Below are positions 1 to 23,661 of a DNA stretch of 26,421 bases, piece by piece. Position numbers and translations under genes: made by a program. Below the pieces are notes generated by a model. The model was not told where the DNA came from and searched no databases. It saw only the letters and a list, made by a program, of their open reading frames with translations. Within the stretch, counting starts at the first letter, position 1, and the number at the start of each line of letters is the position of its first letter. Source of the DNA: a virus; the IMG/VR virus record IMGVR_UViG_3300030106_006588, positions 1 to 26,421 of that record; one strand, given 5' to 3'.

Positions 1-1401
1 CTATTTCAGGAGTTAAATTCTTCTTCTGATAAATTAGATTTTGCTGGAAATAGTACAACTGATTTAAGTGAAGGTTCGAATCAATATTTCACAACATCTA
101 GAGCTAGAGGATCCGTATCAGTAACCGACAGTGGTGGAGATGGTTCTTTAGCTTACAACAGCACTTCGGGAGTAATCACATACACAGGTCCTTCAGCCTC
201 CGAAGCTAGGGCACATTTTAGTGTTGCATCTGGATCAGGATTATCTTACAACTCAAGTTCTGGAGAATTTGGAACATCTGCAATACCAAATAGCCAACTT
301 GCTAATGATGACATAACAATAGGAAGCACTGCAGTTGCACTCGGAGGTTCGCAAGGAACTTTTACAGGTTTAACTTCTTTAGCCTCAACAACCTTAATAT
401 CAGGTGTAGCTGATGCAGCAAACTCTATAAAGTTAGCTAGTGGAAATATTACTTTCGAAGGATCTACAGCAGATGCAAATGAAACAATTCTTACTGCTAC
501 TGATGCAACAGGTGGAGACAAAACTCTAACCTTACCAAATGAGACTGGAACAATATTATCTACTGCATCTTCAATTGCTAACAGTAACCTAGCTAATTCG
601 GCTGTTACTATTGGATCAACTTCTATCAGTCTTGGAGGAACAGTAACTACATTTACTGGTTTATCTTCTTTAACCTCTACAACTTTAGTTGGTACAACAC
701 TTATTTCAGGTACAGCTGATGCAGCAAATTCAATAAAAATTGCAAGTGGAAATATTGTTTTTGAAGGATCTAGTGCAAATGATTTTGAGACAACTCTTAC
801 CGTAACTAATCCAACAGCGGATAGGACAATTACATTCCCAGATTCAACAGGTACCGTAGTTTTATTAGGATCTTTAAGTGTAGCTGCCGGATCGGGATTA
901 ACTTATAACAGTGGAACTGGACAATTTGGGACAAGTTCCATACCAAATGCTCAATTAGCAAACAGTACTGTGACGGTTGGAAGCACAGCTGTAGCTTTAG
1001 GAGCAAGTGCCACGACATTTACTGGATTGGCTTCCATAACTTCAACCGCTGTAGTAACAAATGACAGCGGATTTAGAGTTAGAAATAATAGTGATAATAC
1101 AAAAATACTAGCCCTAGATTGCTCTTCTATATCAGGAAGCACAACAAGGACGTTAGTAGTTCCTGATTCAAATGGAACAATTGCAACTCAAGCTTATGTC
1201 CAAGCTCAGATTACCGCTGAAGATCTCGACATAACCACAGATTCTGGAACGATTGCTATCGATTTAGATTCTGAAACTCTACAGCTATCAGGAGGCACTG
1301 GAATTGATACAAGTGCTTCTGGTAACACAGTTACAGTGGCTGTAGATTCAACTATAGCAACTGAAAGTTTTGCTACCGCAATAGCAGTGGCGTTAGGATA
1401 G
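1..1401 (+). CDS. Repeat-rich phage tail-fibre protein, 5' truncated
   Basis: The frame is open from base 1 to a TAG at 1399-1401, so 466 residues are visible and the N-terminus lies outside the window. The protein is Ser/Thr/Gly/Ala-rich and built of repeats: a module reading roughly (S/A)IPN-x-QLAN followed by TIGSTAVALGG and TFTGL occurs three times (near bases 285, 570 and 940), with a second module ADAANSIK-ASGN (near 415 and 715) and a third, GSGLxYNSxSG (near 235 and 890). This low-complexity beta-repeat style is typical of phage tail-fibre shafts. It ends in AVALG, like the next protein. The gene starts a co-directional virion block. No enzymatic motif is visible. Fibre is a confident class-level call; receptor and exact position in the virion are unknown. 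Confidence 0.8.
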   Translation, partial: LFQELNSSSDKLDFAGNSTTDLSEGSNQYFTTSRARGSVSVTDSGGDGSLAYNSTSGVITYTGPSASEARAHFSVASGSGLSYNSSSGEFGTSAIPNSQLANDDITIGSTAVALGGSQGTFTGLTSLASTTLISGVADAANSIKLASGNITFEGSTADANETILTATDATGGDKTLTLPNETGTILSTASSIANSNLANSAVTIGSTSISLGGTVTTFTGLSSLTSTTLVGTTLISGTADAANSIKIASGNIVFEGSSANDFETTLTVTNPTADRTITFPDSTGTVVLLGSLSVAAGSGLTYNSGTGQFGTSSIPNAQLANSTVTVGSTAVALGASATTFTGLASITSTAVVTNDSGFRVRNNSDNTKILALDCSSISGSTTRTLVVPDSNGTIATQAYVQAQITAEDLDITTDSGTIAIDLDSETLQLSGGTGIDTSASGNTVTVAVDSTIATESFATAIAVALG

Positions 1402-1405
1402 TATT

Positions 1406-1810
1406 ATGGCAACCCAAGTTCAATTTAGAAGAGGAACAACAGCTGAGCACTCAGGATTTAAAGGTGCAGATGGTGAAGTAACTGTAGATACTTCATTAAA
1501 AACTGTTGTTATACATGATGCAATAACAAATGGTGGTTTTCCAGTTTTAAGACAAGATGGTTCTAATTCACAATTTGAAAGAGGATCAACAACAAACTGT
1601 GCATTAAAATTTGCAGGAGATCCTAATACAGGAATAATTAGTCCAGCTTCCGATGAAATTGCTCTCGTAACTGGTGGGTCTACTCATCTTACAATAGATG
1701 CTAATGGAGCTGCTACCTTTACAGGTAATGTCCAAGTAAATGGATCTTTATCAGTCACAGGTAATTTCGATTCCGGAGAAAACTTAGCATTAATTATTGC
1801 TTTAGGATAA
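1406..1810 (+). CDS. Mtd N-terminal-domain-like tail-fibre/tropism protein
   Basis: This 134-aa protein starts 4 nt after the previous stop. Residues 4-48 (QVQFRRGTTAEHSGFKG, then GEVTVDTSLKTVVIHD) match the pattern of the major-tropism-determinant N-terminal domain, a small domain that starts many phage receptor-binding and tail-fibre proteins. The middle (GDPNTGI, TIDANGAATFTGNVQVNG) has the phrases that usually connect this domain to a fibre shaft. The protein is short for a complete fibre and stops after about one shaft module, ending ALIIALG. It may be an adaptor that is completed by a separate fibre polypeptide. Assignment to a receptor-binding tail structure is likely; its partner is inference. 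Confidence 0.72.
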   Translation: MATQVQFRRGTTAEHSGFKGADGEVTVDTSLKTVVIHDAITNGGFPVLRQDGSNSQFERGSTTNCALKFAGDPNTGIISPASDEIALVTGGSTHLTIDANGAATFTGNVQVNGSLSVTGNFDSGENLALIIALG

Positions 1811-1811
1811 T

Positions 1812-2153
1812 ATGGCAAACACCTTCAAAGTCGATACAAAATCAAGTTGTGTTACAGATGCACATACGAGTTCAAATGCGAATGTCTTATCAGCAGGAGG
1901 TTCTGCTACATTAGTTCTTTTAAGTATTTTAGTTGCAAATAAGACAGGAGCTAGTGCTGATGTAGATGTTTTCTTAGTGACGAATACAGGTGATGACGTT
2001 TTTCTTTTAAGAAACGCACCGATACCAGCAGGATCTTCGCTTGAATTAATTAGTGGATCAAAAGTAATTATGGAGAGTAGTGATGTTCTTAGGGTTAGAA
2101 CTGATACCGCTAGTGCTATTGATGTAGCAATAAGTTATCTAGAGCAGACATAA
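1812..2153 (+). CDS. Small virion structural protein
   Basis: 113 aa, starting one base after the preceding TAA. It is predicted to be mostly beta: alternating hydrophobic strands (SATLVLLSILVANKTG, DVFLVTN), then APIPAGSSLELISGSKVIMESSDVLRV and a C-terminal VAISYLEQT. The pattern strand, NPxxAGSS, GSKVxMExxDxLRV matches a recurrent family of small phage virion proteins encoded among tail-fibre genes in marine phages. No signal peptide or membrane segment is seen. Position between a tropism-type protein and a tail-assembly-chaperone-like protein supports a tail/baseplate role. The family is recognised by pattern only; the exact location is not known. Confidence 0.6.
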   Translation: MANTFKVDTKSSCVTDAHTSSNANVLSAGGSATLVLLSILVANKTGASADVDVFLVTNTGDDVFLLRNAPIPAGSSLELISGSKVIMESSDVLRVRTDTASAIDVAISYLEQT

Positions 2154-2154
2154 A

Positions 2155-2472
2155 ATGGGATTATCAGTAAATAACGACCTTGTAAATTTATCTGATAATT
2201 TTGAGATACTTAAGGCAAAGGTTGAGGCTATTGAAATTATACTTTACGGTGAAAGAGTTTTAGAATTAGATGACTCTACTTGGGAAAATATTCGAAAAAA
2301 AAGAGATTATATTTTAAAATCTACAGATTGGACAGTTATACCAGGATGCTCAGTAGATCAAGCACAATGGTCTGCATATAGGCAAAATTTAAGAGATATT
2401 CCTCAGACATACACAGTAATTACAGATGTTACTTGGCCGACGCAGCCCTCTACTTCTGGACCTAACAGTTAG
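2155..2472 (+). CDS. Phage tail-assembly-chaperone-like protein (Phage_tail_APC type)
   Basis: 105 aa, starting one base after the preceding TAA. The C-terminal half has the signature of the phage tail assembly chaperone family: IRKKRDYILKSTDW, then VDQAQWSAYRQNLRDIPQ, then VTWPTQPS. In many phages this module is fused to a fibre C-terminus; here it is free-standing. The N-terminal 40 residues look like a short coiled coil (NDLVNLSDNFEILKAKVEAIE). Its TAG stop (2470-2472) is in the same reading frame as the following fibre gene, with no other stop and no canonical start until 2815, so amber readthrough would give a fused protein. Family call is fairly sure; readthrough is only a possibility. 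Confidence 0.72.
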   Translation: MGLSVNNDLVNLSDNFEILKAKVEAIEIILYGERVLELDDSTWENIRKKRDYILKSTDWTVIPGCSVDQAQWSAYRQNLRDIPQTYTVITDVTWPTQPSTSGPNS

Positions 2473-2814
2473 AAAGTTCCCATATTTACTGAGCTTAAAA
2501 TAATTAAAGAAATAAAGAAGACTTCTAGTTTAATCTGCTATGACATAAGCAGTGGATTCAACGGCAGCACCACAAGTTTTGCATTACAAGTTGCTGGTTC
2601 AGCTCCAGTTCCTTTTCCAAAATCACCTCAACAGGTTTTAATATCAGTAAACGGAGTTATTCAAGAACCTGATCCTACTGGAGCTTCAGGATTTAATTTA
2701 GTTGGTACAAATATAGTTTTTAGTTCTGCTCCTACAAATGGGCATGCATTTTTTGGAATAATATATGCGACTGCTGATTACCTAAATGCAGGTGGTAACT
2801 TCCCTGCAGGTAGT
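2473..2814 (+). other. In-frame fibre N-terminal module without a usable start codon
   Basis: This stretch is open in the same frame as the downstream fibre gene. From 2542 it encodes DISSGFNGSTTSFALQV and further fibre N-terminal sequence (QVLISVNGVIQEP, HAFFGIIYATADYL), closely matching residues 18-90 of the fibre at 4977-6548. There is no in-frame ATG, GTG or TTG from the TAG at 2470 until TTG at 2815. An ATG at 2540 lies one frame away and hits TAA after ATG ACA; one extra base just after it would give Met-Xaa-Ile-Ser-Ser-Gly. So the module is either translated from a rare start, reached by readthrough, or cut off by a one-base deletion. Bases 2473-2541 look non-coding. Confidence 0.7.
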
Positions 2815-4560
2815 TTGGGTGCTCCATCTATCACGTTCATAGGGGATGAAAATAGTGGTCTATTTAGAAAAAGCGGTGGTAGTGTAGGTTTTGTTTCTGA
2901 TGCTACTGAGATAGCTAATTTTGATAGTAATGGAATAACTATTTCCTCTGGTAATTTAATTATTCCTGACAGTATTATTCATAATGGAGATGCAAATACA
3001 AAGATACGATTTCCAGCTGTTGATACAGTAACGATAGAAACTGCTGGTAGTGAGAGACTAAGAGTTGATTCGTCTGGAAATGTAGGTATAGGTACAACAG
3101 GTCCAGCACGTAATTTGGAAGTTAAAGGTGCATCAGGTGATCCAGTTCATTTTAAATTAGAAGGAGATCCAGCTGACTATGCACGTATAATGTTTGCTGA
3201 TGGCACTGACGATAATATTGGTGAGATACGTTATAACTTTGGTAGCGATTTTATGTCGTTCACTGCAAATGCAACAGAGCGTATGCGTATAGATTCGTCT
3301 GGAAGAGTTGGTATAGGTACAACAAGTCCAGGTTCATATAACGGTGGTTTTGATAATTTCGTTATAAGAGGATCTGGTAATACTGGACTGACTATAAGCA
3401 CTGATGATAATAGCTTCGGACAAATCTGTTTTAGTAATGCTGAAGATGCTCATGTCTCAGGAGCTATACAATATCGTAACAGTGATAACATCCTTGAATT
3501 AAGGGCAGGTGAGTCTAATGGAGCAGTAATTTTTTCTACAGTTTCCAATACAGAACGCATGCGTATAGATTCGTCTGGAAACGTAGGTATTGGAATTACA
3601 GATCCAGATCAAAAAGTTGAAGTGGCAGGTGTTGTCGCTGGAAATGATTTAATGGTTGGTCGAACAGCAAATAGATTTCCAATTATACAAAGGCACACTG
3701 TATCTGCAGGAAGTCAAAGTTTGACTATTACAGCAGGGGCAGGGTTAACAACTAACTCTACCTCAGCACCAACCCTTAATGATGCTTTAAATGGTGCTGC
3801 GATACAAATAGTAGGTGGTAATCCAACAAGTGATGTTTTTGGTGGTGGTATTAGATATTATGCAAATGGTCATACAAGTCCTAATAACCCAGGCACTGGA
3901 AATCAACACGTTTTTTATAGAAGGTCAGCAGCAAATACTTTTACTGAAGCAGTAAGAATAACACATACTGGTCACTTTAAAGCTTCAACTGAAGGTAACT
4001 ATGTAGATATTACTGGAAATTATCATGAAAGTTTCACTAATACAAATAATCAACATATTCACTGGTTTCAGCATAGTGGTAGTACGCAAGCACAACAATT
4101 TGGTATAAGAGTCCGGACAGGTGATGATGGTAATGACTCAAATGCTTTAATACAAGCTTCAAGTGGTAGTGCAACTGCTGGTTTAATTTTACGAAATGGC
4201 TCTTTCCAAAGTCGTAATAATTCTTTTGGTGGAATATCTGACATAAAATTAAAAGAAAATATTGTTGATGCAAAATCTCAATGGGATGACATAAAAGCAA
4301 TAAAATTTAGAAATTTTAATTTTAAAGATAATCCAACACAAAAAATGTTAGGTGTTGTTGCACAAGAAATTGAACTTGTTTCTGCTGGTTTAGTTGAAGA
4401 TATTCCAGATAGAGATCCAGATACAAATGAAGATTTAGGCACTGTTACAAAACATGTAAAAAGTTCTATTCTTTATATGAAAGCAATGAAGTGTTTACAG
4501 GAAGCTATGGCAAAAATAGAGGTGTTAGAAACAGAAGTTGCAGCATTAAAAGCAGCTTAA
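2815..4560 (+). CDS. Tail fibre with C-terminal S74 intramolecular chaperone
   Basis: 581 aa counted from the first canonical start, a TTG; the true protein probably includes the upstream module at 2542-2814 (about 673 aa). The shaft carries three copies of the E-R-x-R-(I/V)-D-S-SG-(N/R)-VGIG module (near bases 3049, 3276, 3551). The C-terminus is a peptidase S74 / endosialidase-type intramolecular chaperone: SDIKLKENI with Ser475 and Lys480 five apart, as in the known Ser-Lys self-cleaving dyad, then VVAQEIE and a C-terminal coiled coil. In the family, this domain drives trimerisation and then cuts itself off N-terminal to the Ser. Fibre and S74 calls are firm; the start is the uncertain part. 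Confidence 0.85.
   Translation: MGAPSITFIGDENSGLFRKSGGSVGFVSDATEIANFDSNGITISSGNLIIPDSIIHNGDANTKIRFPAVDTVTIETAGSERLRVDSSGNVGIGTTGPARNLEVKGASGDPVHFKLEGDPADYARIMFADGTDDNIGEIRYNFGSDFMSFTANATERMRIDSSGRVGIGTTSPGSYNGGFDNFVIRGSGNTGLTISTDDNSFGQICFSNAEDAHVSGAIQYRNSDNILELRAGESNGAVIFSTVSNTERMRIDSSGNVGIGITDPDQKVEVAGVVAGNDLMVGRTANRFPIIQRHTVSAGSQSLTITAGAGLTTNSTSAPTLNDALNGAAIQIVGGNPTSDVFGGGIRYYANGHTSPNNPGTGNQHVFYRRSAANTFTEAVRITHTGHFKASTEGNYVDITGNYHESFTNTNNQHIHWFQHSGSTQAQQFGIRVRTGDDGNDSNALIQASSGSATAGLILRNGSFQSRNNSFGGISDIKLKENIVDAKSQWDDIKAIKFRNFNFKDNPTQKMLGVVAQEIELVSAGLVEDIPDRDPDTNEDLGTVTKHVKSSILYMKAMKCLQEAMAKIEVLETEVAALKAA
3274..3596 (+). repeat. Near-identical ERMRIDSSG-coding repeats in fibre genes (first cluster)
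   Basis: Bases 3281-3303 and 3556-3579 share the core GTATAGATTCGTCTGGA nearly unchanged. The same core recurs in the second fibre (5606-5630) and the third fibre (about 20656, 20927, 21167 with one change). The match holds at synonymous positions, so it is more than amino-acid conservation. Confidence 0.8.
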
Positions 4561-4606
4561 AAATAAGTCAAAGTAAAATTAAAATATATTGATTATTTTT
4601 TAAAAA

Positions 4607-4933
4607 ATGGCTGTTACATGGGGTGTTGTTTCTCTTGATTCAACAAAAACAGTAGGAAGTTTATCTAATGTCGTGACTACTGTTCATTGGACTGCTTCGG
4701 AAAGTGAGACTGTTGGTGAAGATACATATACAGGAAGCTCATATGGTTCTGTAGGTTTAGCTGAGGCTGACTCATCATCTTTTACTGCTTATAGTGACAT
4801 TAAAGAATCTGATGCTATTGCATGGGCGAAGGCTGCAATAGGAGCTGATGAAGTTACTGCAATAGAAACAAGTATTGCTAATCAAATTACTGAAGCTAAA
4901 ACACCAACTACAGCCACTGGAGTACCTTGGTAA
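4607..4933 (+). CDS. Small putative virion protein between fibre genes
   Basis: 108 aa. N-terminal half is beta-like and reads MAVTWGVVSLDSTKTVGSLS then VVTTVHWTASESE; the VxxVHW core with a preceding short strand resembles a small protein of unknown function often placed beside fibre genes in marine phages. The C-terminal half (DAIAWAKAAIGADEVTAIE) is helical and rich in Ala/Glu, ending GVPW. No signal peptide or membrane segment. The 46-nt gap upstream is AT-rich (TTGATTATTTTTTAAAAA) with no clear Shine-Dalgarno. A tail-associated role is inferred from position only. Confidence 0.55.
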   Translation: MAVTWGVVSLDSTKTVGSLSNVVTTVHWTASESETVGEDTYTGSSYGSVGLAEADSSSFTAYSDIKESDAIAWAKAAIGADEVTAIETSIANQITEAKTPTTATGVPW

Positions 4934-4947
4934 AATTAGCCATTTTA

Positions 4948-4970
4948 AACTAGATATATCAAAACTAGTT
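4948..4970 (+). other. Short hairpin before second fibre gene
   Basis: AACTAG at 4948-4953 and CTAGTT at 4965-4970 form a 6-bp stem with an 11-nt AT loop, ending 6 nt before the fibre ATG at 4977. It has only a weak T-tail, so it may be a poor terminator for the upstream gene or an RNA element over the ribosome-binding region. Could be chance in AT-rich DNA. Confidence 0.25.
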
Positions 4971-4976
4971 ATTTAG

Positions 4977-6548
4977 ATGGCATACATAGGAGCAGAACCT
5001 GTACCAGGTCAGAATAGAGAAGTTGATGACATATCAAGTGGTTTTAATGGCAGCACTACTGCATTTACCCTTCAAGTTTCCTCATCAAATGTAAGTCCAG
5101 AAAGTGCAAATAACATACTAATAAATCTTGGTGGTGTTTTACAGAATCCCGGAACAGATTATACAATTGCTGCGAGTACCATAACTTTTACTACAGCTCC
5201 AGCAGCCGGTCTTAGTTTCTTTGGATTGATATTAGGAGCTGGAATAAATACAGCAACTGTAGCCGATGACACGATAGGTGCTTCTAAATTAATTGATACA
5301 GCGGTTACCGCAGGTAGTTATACGACTGCTGACATTACAGTTGATGCTCAGGGAAGAATTACAGCTGCAGCAAGTGGAACAATCTCAGGAGCTGAGATAG
5401 CTGATCAGGCCGTAACAAATGCCAAGGTAAATAACTCAGCTGCTATTGCAGGTACAAAGATTAGTCCAGATTTTGGATCTCAGGCAATATCTACAACTAA
5501 TGATTCCGTTACTATCGGTGATAGTATTATTCACTCTGGTGATACAAACACAAAGATAAGATTCCCAGCAGCCGATACAGTCACAGTCGAAACTGCTGGT
5601 TCAGAACGTATGCGTATAGATTCGTCTGGAAACGTAGGTATAGGTTCTTCAGTTACAAATCAATTTGGTCATAAATTATGTATTGAGGATACAAGTGGAT
5701 CAATATTTTATGCACAACACTCAACATCAGGAATACAATTAAAACTGAATTTAGATAATACTAATAATGTTGCATTATTTGGAACAGTTTCTTCAGACGA
5801 CTTACAATTTGTTACCGCAAATAATAATGCCCTTCTTATAGACTCGTCTGGGAGGTTATTAACAGGTGGAGCTACATCTTCGCATGGATCAACAAATGCT
5901 GATGATTTACAGATTGGTGCAAATAATCAAGGTAATCAAACTGGAATTACTTTAGGAAGTGCTAGTGCAAGTAGTGTTAGATTTGCTGACGCTAGTGATG
6001 ACACTTCTGGAGCGATAAATTATATACATAGTGATGATACCATGCGTTTTTCAACTGGATCTAGTGAAAGAGTAAGATTTGATAGTGATGGATTAAAGTT
6101 TAACGGAGACACGTCAGCAGATAACGCACTTGACGACTATGAAGAGGGAACTTTCACGCCACAATTTGCTGGTGTAGGTGGTGGTCCAACCTCAATAACT
6201 TTTGGAACTAACAACGGAGGAAACTATGTAAAAATAGGTCATCTTGTATTTGTTTCAGGCCGATCTGAAATTACTGCTTCTTCAGGTGGTAGTCAGCATT
6301 GGTTAATAACTAATATGCCGTTTGTTTCAAAATCTGGTGGGAAACAATTTGAGTCAATAGGTCATATTGCTCTTGAAAACTTTGCTATTCCTGATGATGT
6401 AATAGACCTTGTTGCAGTTAAGGAGCAAGGTAATAACAATATGCTCTTTAGTGGTACTAGAAAAAATAATACCTTAACTGTTGGTATTAGTCATGGAAAT
6501 GATCAAGTTTATAACGTATCATTTGCAGTTTGTTATAGGACTGCTTAG
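4977..6548 (+). CDS. Tail-fibre protein without S74 domain
   Basis: 523 aa. The N-terminus (MAYIGAEPVPGQNREV, then DDISSGFNGSTTAF) is a common start of phage fibres and is homologous to the orphan module at 2542-2814. Next come a linker (AAIAGTKISPDFGSQ) that is also present at the start of the fibre at 20125, an IIHSGDTNTKIRFPA module shared with the first fibre, one full ERMRIDSSGNVGIG repeat, and a second, divergent SSERVRFDSDG repeat. The C-terminus begins LDDYEEGTFTPQF and continues as a roughly 140-residue globular domain, as in fibres that end with a receptor-binding tip instead of a self-cleaving chaperone. Fibre is firm; tip specificity is unknown. Confidence 0.83.
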   Translation: MAYIGAEPVPGQNREVDDISSGFNGSTTAFTLQVSSSNVSPESANNILINLGGVLQNPGTDYTIAASTITFTTAPAAGLSFFGLILGAGINTATVADDTIGASKLIDTAVTAGSYTTADITVDAQGRITAAASGTISGAEIADQAVTNAKVNNSAAIAGTKISPDFGSQAISTTNDSVTIGDSIIHSGDTNTKIRFPAADTVTVETAGSERMRIDSSGNVGIGSSVTNQFGHKLCIEDTSGSIFYAQHSTSGIQLKLNLDNTNNVALFGTVSSDDLQFVTANNNALLIDSSGRLLTGGATSSHGSTNADDLQIGANNQGNQTGITLGSASASSVRFADASDDTSGAINYIHSDDTMRFSTGSSERVRFDSDGLKFNGDTSADNALDDYEEGTFTPQFAGVGGGPTSITFGTNNGGNYVKIGHLVFVSGRSEITASSGGSQHWLITNMPFVSKSGGKQFESIGHIALENFAIPDDVIDLVAVKEQGNNNMLFSGTRKNNTLTVGISHGNDQVYNVSFAVCYRTA

Positions 6549-6605
6549 ACCGTTAGCAAGTCTTTAAACTATGCCTAAACCTGTTTTAATTGGAGATTAA
6601 TCCTA

Positions 6606-6893
6606 ATGGCACTTACAGAATCAATTGAATACGACAAAATAGAAGTTGTTGGTGAGTACAACATTGTACAAGTAAGAAAGAAAAATGCAGTTAAAAAAGA
6701 TGGAGTGGAAATTGCTTCCAGCTTTGAAAGATATAGCTTAAATCCAGGATCGTTAGATGGTTCTGATAATTTAGTAGATAGAGATTTATCAGCAGAACCA
6801 GAAAAAGTAAAATCAATTTGTAACGCTGTATGGACTGATGATATAAAAGCTACGTGGAAAGCTAGACTGATAGCAGATAAACCAAGCTCATAA
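6606..6893 (+). CDS. Small fibre-adjacent protein, unknown function
   Basis: 95 aa, preceded by GGAG at 6590-6593, a good ribosome-binding site though about 12 nt from the ATG. It begins MALTESIEYDKIEVVGEYN and continues with IVQVRKKNAVKKDGVEIASS; the charged beta pattern and the late KATWKARL helix are typical of a small conserved protein found after fibre genes in marine phages. No membrane or catalytic motif is visible. It closes the first co-directional virion block; 55 nt of AT-rich DNA follow before a membrane-protein gene. A structural or assembly role is inferred from position. Confidence 0.5.
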   Translation: MALTESIEYDKIEVVGEYNIVQVRKKNAVKKDGVEIASSFERYSLNPGSLDGSDNLVDRDLSAEPEKVKSICNAVWTDDIKATWKARLIADKPSS

Positions 6894-6948
6894 TAATTAT
6901 TGCTACATTAAAAACATCTTGATAATATTTAAATAAATACTTTAAAAA

Positions 6949-7161
6949 ATGCAAAAAATTTTTAACGCTATCGCTGTAGCTTCAGGAGTTCTTACTTTAA
7001 CAATAATAGGAGTTGGTATCTATGGCTATAAATATTTAACTAGTGATAATTTTGAAAAATTAATTAAAAACAAAATCATGGGAGATATACAAAATGTTCT
7101 CCCAAAAGCAATAGAAAATGAATTGCCAACAAAAACAGGAGTATCAATACCATTTAAATGA
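6949..7161 (+). CDS. Small single-pass membrane protein
   Basis: 70 aa. Residues 7-29 (AIAVASGVLTLTIIGVGIYG) form one hydrophobic segment after a short basic start, followed by a charged tail of about 40 residues (NFEKLIKNKIMGDIQNVL). Its stop overlaps the next gene start as ATGA (7158-7161), so the two are probably translationally coupled. The upstream 55 nt are AT-rich and contain AATAAATA at 6932-6939, which resembles a phage late -10 box but lies too close to the ATG to be convincing. I do not recognise the family. It begins the envelope-directed cluster reaching to 10341. Confidence 0.6.
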   Translation: MQKIFNAIAVASGVLTLTIIGVGIYGYKYLTSDNFEKLIKNKIMGDIQNVLPKAIENELPTKTGVSIPFK

Positions 7162-7841
7162 CCATCCCTGTTATAGGTGTACCTGATATATCTATACCTC
7201 ATATACCTGTTCAAGTTATAGAGCCAGTAAGAGTATTTGGAGATTACGTAATCCATCCTTCTTTTAGTGAACCATCTCTAATGCTTCCAGGATGCTATAA
7301 AACTCATCGTGATGCGGATAAAAATTCTAATCTTATAAATGATGACCCTAAAGGATCTTTTTGGAATTGCCCTTGGGGTGAAGTAGCAGAAATTATGCCT
7401 TTACAATTTGATAGGTCAAAAATGATCTATTCAAATGATGTAAAGGAAGAAAAGAAAAAAGAAGAACCAGTAATAATAAAAGAAACAAAAGAAACAAAAA
7501 TTCCAGAAAAAAAAGAAAAAAAGATATTTTTTCCTCCATGTCCAGATCCTAATTCAAAGCTTAGAGTAGGATCATTTGCCAATGAAAAAAGATTAGAGAA
7601 AGTTAAAGAGTTTCGCTATAACGAATCAAAAACCGAATGCTTAACCATTTGGGAAGATGTGTCCTATGTTGACCAATGGCTACCAGAACCAACCCTAGTC
7701 ATAAACACAATAATAATAGCCTCGATAGCAGCTTCCAGTCCTATTTTAGTAAATGTTATTAAAGGACTTACGAAGAATATTGTTAAAAAAATTACTTCTT
7801 CTCGGAAGAAAAAGAATGATAATGCTTCTCAATCTGATTAG
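7158..7841 (+). CDS. Putative membrane protein with Lys/Glu-rich linker
   Basis: 227 aa, coupled to the preceding gene by an ATGA overlap. The N-terminus is rich in Ile/Pro/Val (TIPVIGVPDISIPHIPVQVI). Residues 96-122 are a low-complexity Lys/Glu stretch (KEEKKKEEPVIIKET and onward) that could be an extended spacer. Cysteines occur at 46, 71, 128 and 161. Residues 179-202 (TLVINTIIIASIAASSPILV) form a hydrophobic segment followed by a basic tail, suggesting C-terminal membrane anchoring. Linker plus anchor recalls periplasm-spanning proteins, but there is no homology I can name. Its last 50 nt overlap the end of the convergent gene at 7792. Confidence 0.55.
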   Translation: MTIPVIGVPDISIPHIPVQVIEPVRVFGDYVIHPSFSEPSLMLPGCYKTHRDADKNSNLINDDPKGSFWNCPWGEVAEIMPLQFDRSKMIYSNDVKEEKKKEEPVIIKETKETKIPEKKEKKIFFPPCPDPNSKLRVGSFANEKRLEKVKEFRYNESKTECLTIWEDVSYVDQWLPEPTLVINTIIIASIAASSPILVNVIKGLTKNIVKKITSSRKKKNDNASQSD

Positions 7842-8457
7842 GTTGAGGGGTAAGATAAACATCAGCACAGACAGAATGGAAGACCGTTCCTTTTTTTACG
7901 TTTATGCCCTTTTGCATTAATTCTCCACAGTGTTTTACCCTAGCGACATGCCATTCAAGTTCTAAGTTTTTAAGTTTTTGTTTTTGAATATTAATTTGAG
8001 TTTTAGCTGCAGCTTTACATTGTCTACCTAGTTCCCTATCTAATGGTATAGAAAAATTTAGAGTAATCCCTGTGCCCAAGGAATATGCATCTTTATTAGT
8101 TCCTGAATAATTTTGTTGATAATAAAGAATATTACCAGGATTATCAGGAGTTCCATCTCCTATAGGGTTACCATCATCATCAAAATCACCCTTTATATCT
8201 GTTGGATCATATACTGGAGTTTCATATCTGTGATCAAAAGGTTTCTGAAAATTTGAATTAAATGTAGAAAAGGGAGTGATGTTCATCATAGCTCCTTGAC
8301 AGACTATATTTCCTCCATATTGATTGGTGTGAAAACTCCCATTATTGACATTATAATTTTGATTTGTAACACTTCCAGTATTTGATTGACTTACTGCATT
8401 AGCTAATACTGATGTAGGAGAGAGCAGTAAAACTAATGCTATTTTTGAAAAATTGAT
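7792..8457 (-). CDS. Exported protein with lost ATG start (ATC), unknown function
   Basis: The likely mature gene begins at an ATC codon (8457-8455) inside the end of the upstream gene and encodes 221 aa. Read this way it starts NFSKIALVLLLSPTSVLA-NA, a textbook Sec signal peptide, after which come an Asn/Gly-rich region, an Asp-rich loop (DIKGDFDDDGNPIGDG), a strand GTGITLNFSIP and a helical Lys-rich C-terminal part with four Cys in all after the signal. No ATG, GTG or TTG lies near this point; the nearest upstream one (8610) would place the signal peptide internally. A C at + strand position 8455 would make ATG and also give the upstream gene a TGA stop. Family not recognised; export is well supported, function unknown. 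Confidence 0.6.
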   Translation of the reverse strand: MNFSKIALVLLLSPTSVLANAVSQSNTGSVTNQNYNVNNGSFHTNQYGGNIVCQGAMMNITPFSTFNSNFQKPFDHRYETPVYDPTDIKGDFDDDGNPIGDGTPDNPGNILYYQQNYSGTNKDAYSLGTGITLNFSIPLDRELGRQCKAAAKTQINIQKQKLKNLELEWHVARVKHCGELMQKGINVKKGTVFHSVCADVYLTPQPNQIEKHYHSFSSEKK

Positions 8458-8867
8458 TGCGTGACTGTTGTGCTTTCCACGGTTATTTGGCGATTTATAG
8501 TTGTGACGTTGGAGAGCCCTGGCCCCATATAACTTTCCGTTAGTTGGAAGGGAGCTCCGTTTTCTGTCTGTACGAAGGTTGGTTTTGTACTGAAATCTAA
8601 ACCAGTCCATGAGTAACTAACTCCATCTGTAGTTCCATTCGTTTGAACAGCACTTGGTATCATACTACCGCTGTCTTGTAGTTCTACGCCAGTACCTGAA
8701 ACACTATAGGTATATCCTGAATTATAGTCTTTTGAAACCACTGATTCAACTATAGTTTGCTGTGTCGTGGTAGTAGAATTCATAGTCCCAGTTGTGAAGG
8801 CTCCAGTGATAGGTGAGGCTTTTAAAGGGACAGGTAAAAATATAAACAGTAATAAGAACCGTTTCAC
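8439..8867 (-). CDS. Exported Ser/Thr-rich protein, unknown function
   Basis: 142 aa with a GTG start (8867-8865) that overlaps the upstream TAG stop by one base (TAGTG), indicating coupled translation. Residues 1-18 (MKRFLLLFIFLPVPLKAS) are a signal peptide with a basic n-region, Leu/Phe core and a KAS/SP cleavage region. The mature part is Thr/Ser/Gly-rich with beta character (TTTTQQTIVESVVS, YTYSVSGTGVEL), and repeats of SVSGTGV-type text link it to the neighbour at 8867-9352 (SISGSGVN). The last five codons before TAG (S-I-F-Q-K) may be an extension created by loss of a TGA at 8456-8454. No enzyme motif. Export is likely; role unknown. Confidence 0.62.
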   Translation of the reverse strand: MKRFLLLFIFLPVPLKASPITGAFTTGTMNSTTTTQQTIVESVVSKDYNSGYTYSVSGTGVELQDSGSMIPSAVQTNGTTDGVSYSWTGLDFSTKPTFVQTENGAPFQLTESYMGPGLSNVTTINRQITVESTTVTQSIFQK

Positions 8868-9352
8868 TAGTCTAGGGTAAGTCCAACTACAAATTGACCA
8901 GTAACCGTGGTGCCTGCTCCTCCTGCAGTTATTGTAATATCATTTTTAGTATCAATAGTACCTGCTAATGAGCCTGCTACACCAGCCGATGTGCTTGTAA
9001 GATCCCCGAATGGGCTTGTCTCACCAACCGTTAAGCTAGTTGCTACCGTATCACCGGCAGTATAACTACTCGAAAATGAGAAAGCGTCGCCTGAAGTCAA
9101 TTGGCTTGCAGTGATTGGTGTGTAAGCATTTACGCCATTTGTGGCTGCTCCTAGACCGCCTACGCTACCTGTTGTTGTTCCATCGGTAGTATTGACCCCA
9201 GAGCCACTTATACTCATAGAGTTACCAATGCGATCTGCAGCGGTTGCTGCTGCTGAAACCTCTAGTTTTACCGATGAGCTAATTGAGTGAGTAATATCGG
9301 CTTTTACACTAGGGGTTAATAAGATTATTAATAGTGAAAAATACTTTAACAT
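8867..9352 (-). CDS. Exported Ser/Thr/Gly-rich protein, unknown function
   Basis: 161 aa, first gene of a three-gene - strand operon of exported proteins. Residues 1-18 (MLKYFSLLIILLTPSVKA) form a signal peptide with cleavage expected after KA before DITHS. The mature protein is strongly Ser/Thr/Gly/Ala-rich with a beta pattern (SSSVKLEVSAAATAADRIG, SISGSGVNTTDG) and a final strand TVTGQFVVGLTLD that ends in an aspartate after a hydrophobic strand. It contains no cysteine. This composition suggests a secreted or outer-membrane-associated beta protein in the host, but I recognise no named family. An inverted repeat in the divergent intergenic region (9380-9403) may control it. Confidence 0.62.
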   Translation of the reverse strand: MLKYFSLLIILLTPSVKADITHSISSSVKLEVSAAATAADRIGNSMSISGSGVNTTDGTTTGSVGGLGAATNGVNAYTPITASQLTSGDAFSFSSSYTAGDTVATSLTVGETSPFGDLTSTSAGVAGSLAGTIDTKNDITITAGGAGTTVTGQFVVGLTLD

Positions 9353-12840: not shown

Positions 12841-13053
12841 ATGGATCTTAACCTTCCGACAAATGTTGAATTTTCTATTCATGCTGCGTCTTTGGCGATA
12901 CAATCTTTAGATAGAGTAGAATTGGAAGAGGCATTTATCGAGCTTTTACATCAAAAAGCATTAGATCGTCAGATGTTTTACGGCATACTGAAGGATCATG
13001 GCATTGATGCCAACATTCAATTCCAGCTCTCTACTGAAGGGCAAATTTCTTAA
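12841..13053 (+). CDS. nblA: NblA-like phycobilisome-degradation adaptor
   Basis: 70 aa. Residues 9-53 align without gaps to the cyanobacterial NblA core (from memory of the family): F-S-I-x9-Q near the start of helix 1, then LEEAFIELLHQKALDRQMFY, then GILKDHGI, paralleling F-N-L...VxNMSxEQAQ-FLVxLYxQM-VRE-Y-ELLKHQWG. NblA is a small helical adaptor that tethers phycobilisomes to the Clp protease during nitrogen or sulphur starvation; phage copies are known in freshwater cyanophages and at least one uncultured marine one. The usual W-G after LKxH is H-G here, so divergence is real. A 50-nt AT-rich leader (TATATGTATAAAGG) precedes it. Moderately sure of the family. Confidence 0.6.
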   Translation: MDLNLPTNVEFSIHAASLAIQSLDRVELEEAFIELLHQKALDRQMFYGILKDHGIDANIQFQLSTEGQIS

Positions 13054-22884: not shown

Positions 22885-23051
22885 TTTGCTTTTTGATAAA
22901 TGGGAGTCATAATACCACCGCCTTGATCGTCGTCATCATCGCCATCAATTGCACGTAGTATTAGTTCTATTAAAACTAAACAACCTATGGGATAAAAGAC
23001 CCATAAGGCTGCTGTAGAGGAGGATATTAGATATGAATTTTCTAATATCAT
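22881..23051 (-). CDS. Small membrane protein with acidic cluster, in hli operon
   Basis: 56 aa; ATG at 23051-23049 overlaps the upstream hli stop as TAATG. Residues 13-35 are a membrane span (TAALWVFYPIGCLVLIELIL), followed by RAIDGDDDDDQGGG, an Asp-rich cluster, and MTPIYQKAK. Its TGA overlaps the next ATG. The hydrophobic span plus acidic tail suggests a membrane peptide with a stromal/cytoplasmic acidic end. I believe a similar protein follows hli genes in other cyanophages, but cannot verify this here. Function unknown. Confidence 0.6.
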   Translation of the reverse strand: MILENSYLISSSTAALWVFYPIGCLVLIELILRAIDGDDDDDQGGGIMTPIYQKAK

Positions 23052-23194
23052 TAAATAAAACCAGGAATTAGCTGTCCTGTAGTTAGATAAGCACCAACTG
23101 CAGCAACTACACCTAACATTGCTAATTGACCATTTAATCTCTCAGCAATTATTTTTTGTTTTTCAACTGGTTTTGTATAAGATTGAATGTCCAT
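23051..23194 (-). CDS. hli: High-light-inducible protein (Hli), fourth copy
   Basis: 47 aa from ATG at 23194-23192, which overlaps the previous stop as TAATG; a longer frame reaches 23242 but would run into the neighbouring gene. It has the Hli signature AERLNGQLAMLGVVAAVGAY followed by LTTGQLIPGF, with the chlorophyll-ligand E-x-x-N and the membrane helix. Hli proteins bind chlorophyll/carotenoid, protect photosystem II assembly from excess light and are standard cyanophage auxiliary genes. N-terminus is MDIQSYTKPVEKQKI. Firm family call. Confidence 0.88.
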   Translation of the reverse strand: MDIQSYTKPVEKQKIIAERLNGQLAMLGVVAAVGAYLTTGQLIPGFI

Positions 23195-23307
23195 TACACA
23201 TATCCTGGGATTAGTTGTCCTGTAAAGCCATAGACTGTACATATAACCACAAAACCCATCATTGCTGCTCGGCCTTGTGCTTTAAAAAAAATATCCTTGT
23301 TATCCAT
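23194..23307 (-). CDS. hli: High-light-inducible protein (Hli), third copy, short
   Basis: 37 aa, overlapping both neighbours as TAATG (23309-23305 and 23196-23192). The sequence is DNKDIFFKAQGRAAMMGFVV, then ICTVYGFTGQLIPGYV. It keeps the helix and the TGQLIPG ending but has A-Q-G-R-A-A in place of the E-x-x-N-G-x-(A/W)-A ligand motif, so Glu of the chlorophyll-binding pair is missing and Arg is shifted. It may be a divergent Hli or a partner subunit. Family call is good; pigment binding is doubtful. Confidence 0.75.
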   Translation of the reverse strand: MDNKDIFFKAQGRAAMMGFVVICTVYGFTGQLIPGYV

Positions 23308-23459
23308 TAGAATATGCCAGGAATTATATTACCTGTTGTTGCGTATGCACCAACTGCTGCTACGAATCCAAGCATTGCTGCCCAGCCGTTAAATCTTTCT
23401 GCTTCAGGAGTCATGATGTTGTACCTTTGAGTAATTGTAAATTGGGAATTGATTTTCAT
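23307..23459 (-). CDS. hli: High-light-inducible protein (Hli), second copy
   Basis: 50 aa from ATG at 23459, preceded by AAGGAG 6 nt upstream, the best Shine-Dalgarno of the operon; a longer frame to 23513 is rejected for that reason. Sequence starts MKINSQFTITQRYNIM and carries AERFNGWAAMLGFVAAVGAY followed by ATTGNIIPGIF, with E-x-x-N of the chlorophyll-binding helix. Gene spacing to the first hli copy is 10 nt, and the downstream start overlaps its stop. A thylakoid membrane protein in the host. Firm. Confidence 0.88.
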   Translation of the reverse strand: MKINSQFTITQRYNIMTPEAERFNGWAAMLGFVAAVGAYATTGNIIPGIF

Positions 23460-23469
23460 CCAAGTCTCC

Positions 23470-23661
23470 TTAGAAGATTCCTGGAATAATCTGACCGGTT
23501 GTTGAATAAGCACCTATCAAAGCCACGAAACCAATCATTGCCCAACGTCCATTAGCTTTTTCAGCCTCTTCTGGATAACCCTTATAATTAGGATCTATCT
23601 CAGTATGTGGCTCAATAGAATAGATGTTTTGGCGATTGCCACTTTCTGTAACTGTTGTCAT
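23470..23661 (-). CDS. hli: High-light-inducible protein (Hli), first copy
   Basis: 63 aa from ATG at 23661. The N-terminal 30 residues are polar (TTVTESGNRQNIYSIEPHTE); then come EEAEKANGRWAMIGFVALIG and AYSTTGQIIPGIF, the full Hli motif with E-x-x-N-G-R-x-A-M. Of the four copies this has the complete motif with Arg, so it is the best candidate for canonical pigment binding. It is the first gene of the operon and lies directly downstream of the NtcA-type promoter (23684-23724). Confidence 0.9.
   Translation of the reverse strand: MTTVTESGNRQNIYSIEPHTEIDPNYKGYPEEAEKANGRWAMIGFVALIGAYSTTGQIIPGIF

Follow-up and report, generated by a model that had tools for sequence, protein, structure and literature searches.

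The S74 tail fibre gene of virus record IMGVR_UViG_3300030106_006588 is almost certainly an ordinary gene that has been broken by, or mis-assembled with, a deletion of 52 bases immediately after its normal ATG, with no unusual translation mechanism involved. Whether the deletion is real or an artefact, the gene as deposited is a damaged copy that is ordinary in other respects. The absent start codon does not indicate readthrough, frameshifting or a rare start, and a false lead is thereby removed.

The sequence analysed, referred to here as the window, covers positions 1 to 26,421 of this record, which is 69,128 bases long. It was compared with two near-identical contigs from two other IMG/VR samples, IMGVR_UViG_3300030380_005651 (G001, 38.6 kb) and IMGVR_UViG_3300030103_005108 (G002, 28.4 kb). 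The chaperone and the fibre N-terminus each matched 80 loci in scans of IMG/VR, and the arrangement in the wider family was assessed on 69 distinct chaperone-fibre junctions in relatives. The features concerned are as follows.

2155..2472, + strand: phage tail assembly chaperone gene, with stop TAG at 2470-2472 (Pfam PF16778, Phage_tail_APC, E 2e-15; 100% identical in G001 and G002)
2473..2539, + strand: intergenic spacer of 67 bases, equal in length to that of the near-identical relatives (relatives' spacing)
2540..2548, + strand: native fibre start ATG at 2540-2542, then, past the deletion point, ACA TAA, leaving a frame of two codons (comparison with relatives)
2542..2543, + strand: deletion junction, at which 52 bases found in G001, G002 and the family are absent and the ends share ATG (alignment)
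2542..4560, + strand: rest of the S74 tail fibre gene, open, with its own start out of frame (PF13884 and PHROG matches; body identical to G001)
4977..6548, + strand: second fibre with intact N-terminus MAYIGAEPVPGQNREVDDISSGFNGS, the comparison copy (open reading frame and similarity search)

On reading of the sequence, the fibre frame is free of stop codons from 2473, immediately after the chaperone TAG, to 4557, and the gene ends at 4560. It encodes DISSGFNGSTTSFALQV. The remainder of the gene is made up of an N-terminal domain from DISSGF, repeats, and a C-terminal intramolecular chaperone. Residues 589-636 of the fibre protein (P0002) are the Pfam domain Peptidase_S74 (PF13884), scoring 28.9 bits against a cut-off of 22, and the protein matches the PHROG tail fibre families 9942, 18345 and 18673. 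The small protein at 1406-1807, which lies beside the fibre genes, contains Mtd_N, the major tropism determinant N-terminal domain (PF18454, E 3.6e-12).

The first-pass annotation described a fibre N-terminus that is in frame but lacks a start codon before TTG 2815, and inspection of the codons from 2473 to 2815 agrees: this TTG is the first in-frame ATG, GTG or TTG, and the list of open reading frames also begins the gene there. The homology to the N-terminus of the second fibre (5028-5237) holds as well, at 47% identity (E 4e-14). So does the position of the ATG at 2540, which is one base off the fibre frame and reads ATG ACA TAA, or Met-Thr-stop. Translation from TTG 2815 would leave out the N-terminal domain, by which tail fibres of this kind are expected to attach to the virion. 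Gene callers that take this TTG as the start would lose this conserved domain.

The relatives identify the native start. In all 69 distinct junctions the DISSGF codon is preceded, at a distance of exactly 54 nt, by an ATG that opens an 18-residue leader of the form MxYIG...ID ahead of DISSxFNG, with sequences such as MPYIGNTIRAADDYRLID, MPYIGNNIRSADDYRLID and MAYIGNDLRSNEDYKIID. The window copy has lost this leader through the 52-base deletion. Among 44 aligned relatives the DNA near the ATG has a diversity of about 0.05, with third positions at 0.04-0.05 compared to 0.3-0.5 further into the fibre. This low diversity, third positions included, fits a start site that is in use. The annotation's suggestions of a rare ATT, ATA or ATC start or of frameshifting find no support in a family that uses this ATG throughout, and a rare start codon is made unnecessary by the known native ATG.

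The same junctions bear on the proposal that readthrough of the amber codon at 2470 joins the chaperone to the fibre as a fusion protein. In the window the two genes do share a frame, and the absence of stops from 2473 to 4557, which such a fusion would need, is a point that stands against the deletion as the best explanation. This shared frame is accounted for by the length of the deletion (about one chance in three) together with a short spacer that is free of stops; in the near-identical relatives the spacer leaves the two genes in different frames. The chaperone stop and the DISSGF codon are 116-121 nt apart in 67 of the 69 junctions and 102 nt apart in the other two; in the window the distance is 69 nt. 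Both TAA and TAG serve as chaperone stops among the relatives, and the frame relation between the genes varies, so the family is not characterised by a readthrough fusion. Programmed fusions by stop codon readthrough are recognised by a conserved frame relation and a second gene without a start of its own. Here the frame relation is variable and every relative starts its fibre at a separate ATG, which contradicts the readthrough proposal and makes it extremely improbable.

The deletion itself is seen on comparison with the two near-identical contigs. Positions 1-8417 of the window are identical to G001 and G002 except for a single 52-base gap at 2542, and over 1-8874 only three substitutions (8675, 8679 and 8681) are added to this gap. 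In the compared region, G001 and G002 are in practice the same strain as the window. In both, 17 codons lie between the ATG equivalent to 2540-2542 and DISSGF. Their fibre genes, in otherwise the same DNA, hold the 52 bases and have their start in frame, whereas that of the window does not. The missing stretch begins exactly after the ATG, removing codons 2-18 and one further base. The annotation had been right in listing a deletion, whether by mutation or assembly error, among the causes. Its size and place were not as suggested: 52 bases have been lost after the true ATG, rather than one base. A one-base deletion can be rejected, there being no single-base difference at this location between the window and its near-identical relatives.

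Loss of these bases puts the retained ATG out of the fibre frame. Ribosomes that initiate at the native ATG would stop after two codons, Met-Thr-stop, and the gene as written should yield no full-length fibre. The trinucleotide ATG is found at both ends of the lost stretch, and no longer repeat was seen at the breakpoints. Deletion by slippage or microhomology may be responsible, or a similar event during library making or assembly; either would fit the three-base match. By simple arithmetic, random breakpoints in DNA of equal base composition would share three bases or more in about 5% of cases, and for this reason the overlap lends weak support to a microhomology mechanism. A deletion driven by a hairpin was rejected, as the segment and its flanks fold no better than shuffled sequences (z 0.26). 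No structured RNA of a known Rfam family was found in the window.

The junction sequence of the window was found in no other viral contig besides its own record (such scans may leave the own record out), and the exact intact sequence over the start was found in 19 viral contigs. There were no plasmid relatives. The lost stretch was not found elsewhere in the record, either relocated or inverted, with up to 3 mismatches allowed. These results bear on the possibility that the fibre is switched on and off reversibly by phase variation, or is started from a rare ATT, ATC or ATA codon. A deletion of this kind would turn the gene off, and rare codons are indeed present in frame before TTG 2815 (ATA at 2482, 2500, 2512, 2545, 2641, 2713, 2758 and 2761; ATT at 2503 and 2659; ATC at 2533). 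In a phase variable gene, however, both forms recur and a sequence mechanism allows reversal. Here the short form is confined to the window's record and absent from other contigs, the lost stretch is not retained, and the breakpoint repeat is no longer than the ATG. Neither a switch nor a rare start is at all probable.

From the sequences, the odds that the 52-base deletion is present in phages, against its being an artefact, would be roughly even. The chance that it arose during assembly or library making, for instance from a chimeric read or by false joining over a coverage gap, is not quite even. The junction is seen in this record alone, and G001 and G002, the two further contigs of the strain, carry the intact sequence. 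The record is also a scaffold with at least one N gap: the ten N at 26422-26431 stand in for 81 bases of G001, and the assembly is therefore incomplete at that point. The overlap between G001 and the record is 30,118 bases, nearly identical with a handful of mismatches, and this N gap is the sole length difference besides the 52 bases. A 13-base difference to G002 near 12866 is due to a run of N in G002. That the shared 30 kb is otherwise free of indels argues against an artefact, as does the lack of unusual predicted folding in the segment. Joining over no more than three shared bases would also ordinarily require one or more reads that cross the join. Just beyond the end of the window, the ten N fall within the gene at L139 385-1239.

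The chance is about even that the deletion is instead genuine and carried by some or most of the phages in the sampled population, as a spontaneous loss-of-function mutation in one of several fibre genes. The deletion is clean, with ATG shared by its breakpoints, the assembler kept the short path, and two further fibre-like genes, at 4977 and 20125, are still open. Against this, the short form is in no other viral contig, and the fibre body has not decayed further, so that the deletion would have to be recent. If real, it amounts to a fibre knock-out that arose naturally in a near-clonal background. It is distinctly improbable that the short allele is both real and common in the population, with phages switching this fibre off through loss of the start region and keeping the two others as an adjustment of host range.

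Like the S74 tail fibres of marine cyanophages (endosialidase-type, PF13884), the window fibre has a C-terminal S74 domain, an N-terminal DISSxFNG domain and a PF16778 neighbour. It differs from them by the loss of the 17 codons that follow the start, which leaves it with no usable start in frame. At the protein level, the fibre N-terminus and the chaperone are closest to those of marine cyanophages and other marine phages, with identities below 60%.

In many relatives the DNA similarity ends at window positions 2961-3092, just past the fibre N-terminal domain, with the chaperone and the N-terminus remaining alike. On these alignments, fibre bodies seem to be swapped as modules. The spacer between the chaperone and the fibre contains a conserved non-coding stretch, TATTTACTGAGCTTAAAATA, near 2483-2502, with a diversity of 0.036 compared to 0.28 at chaperone third positions in the 44 relatives. 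The exact 23-mer CATATTTACTGAGCTTAAAATAA is found in 44 viral contigs, and a near-identical 19-mer is present a single time in the window. The conserved stretch may act as a promoter or have some other regulatory role.

The record also encodes a photosystem II D1-like protein (L139 10507-11649) and short proteins resembling high-light-inducible proteins (23051-23661), both recognised by eye from the translations. The presence of these proteins suggests that the host is a marine cyanobacterium.
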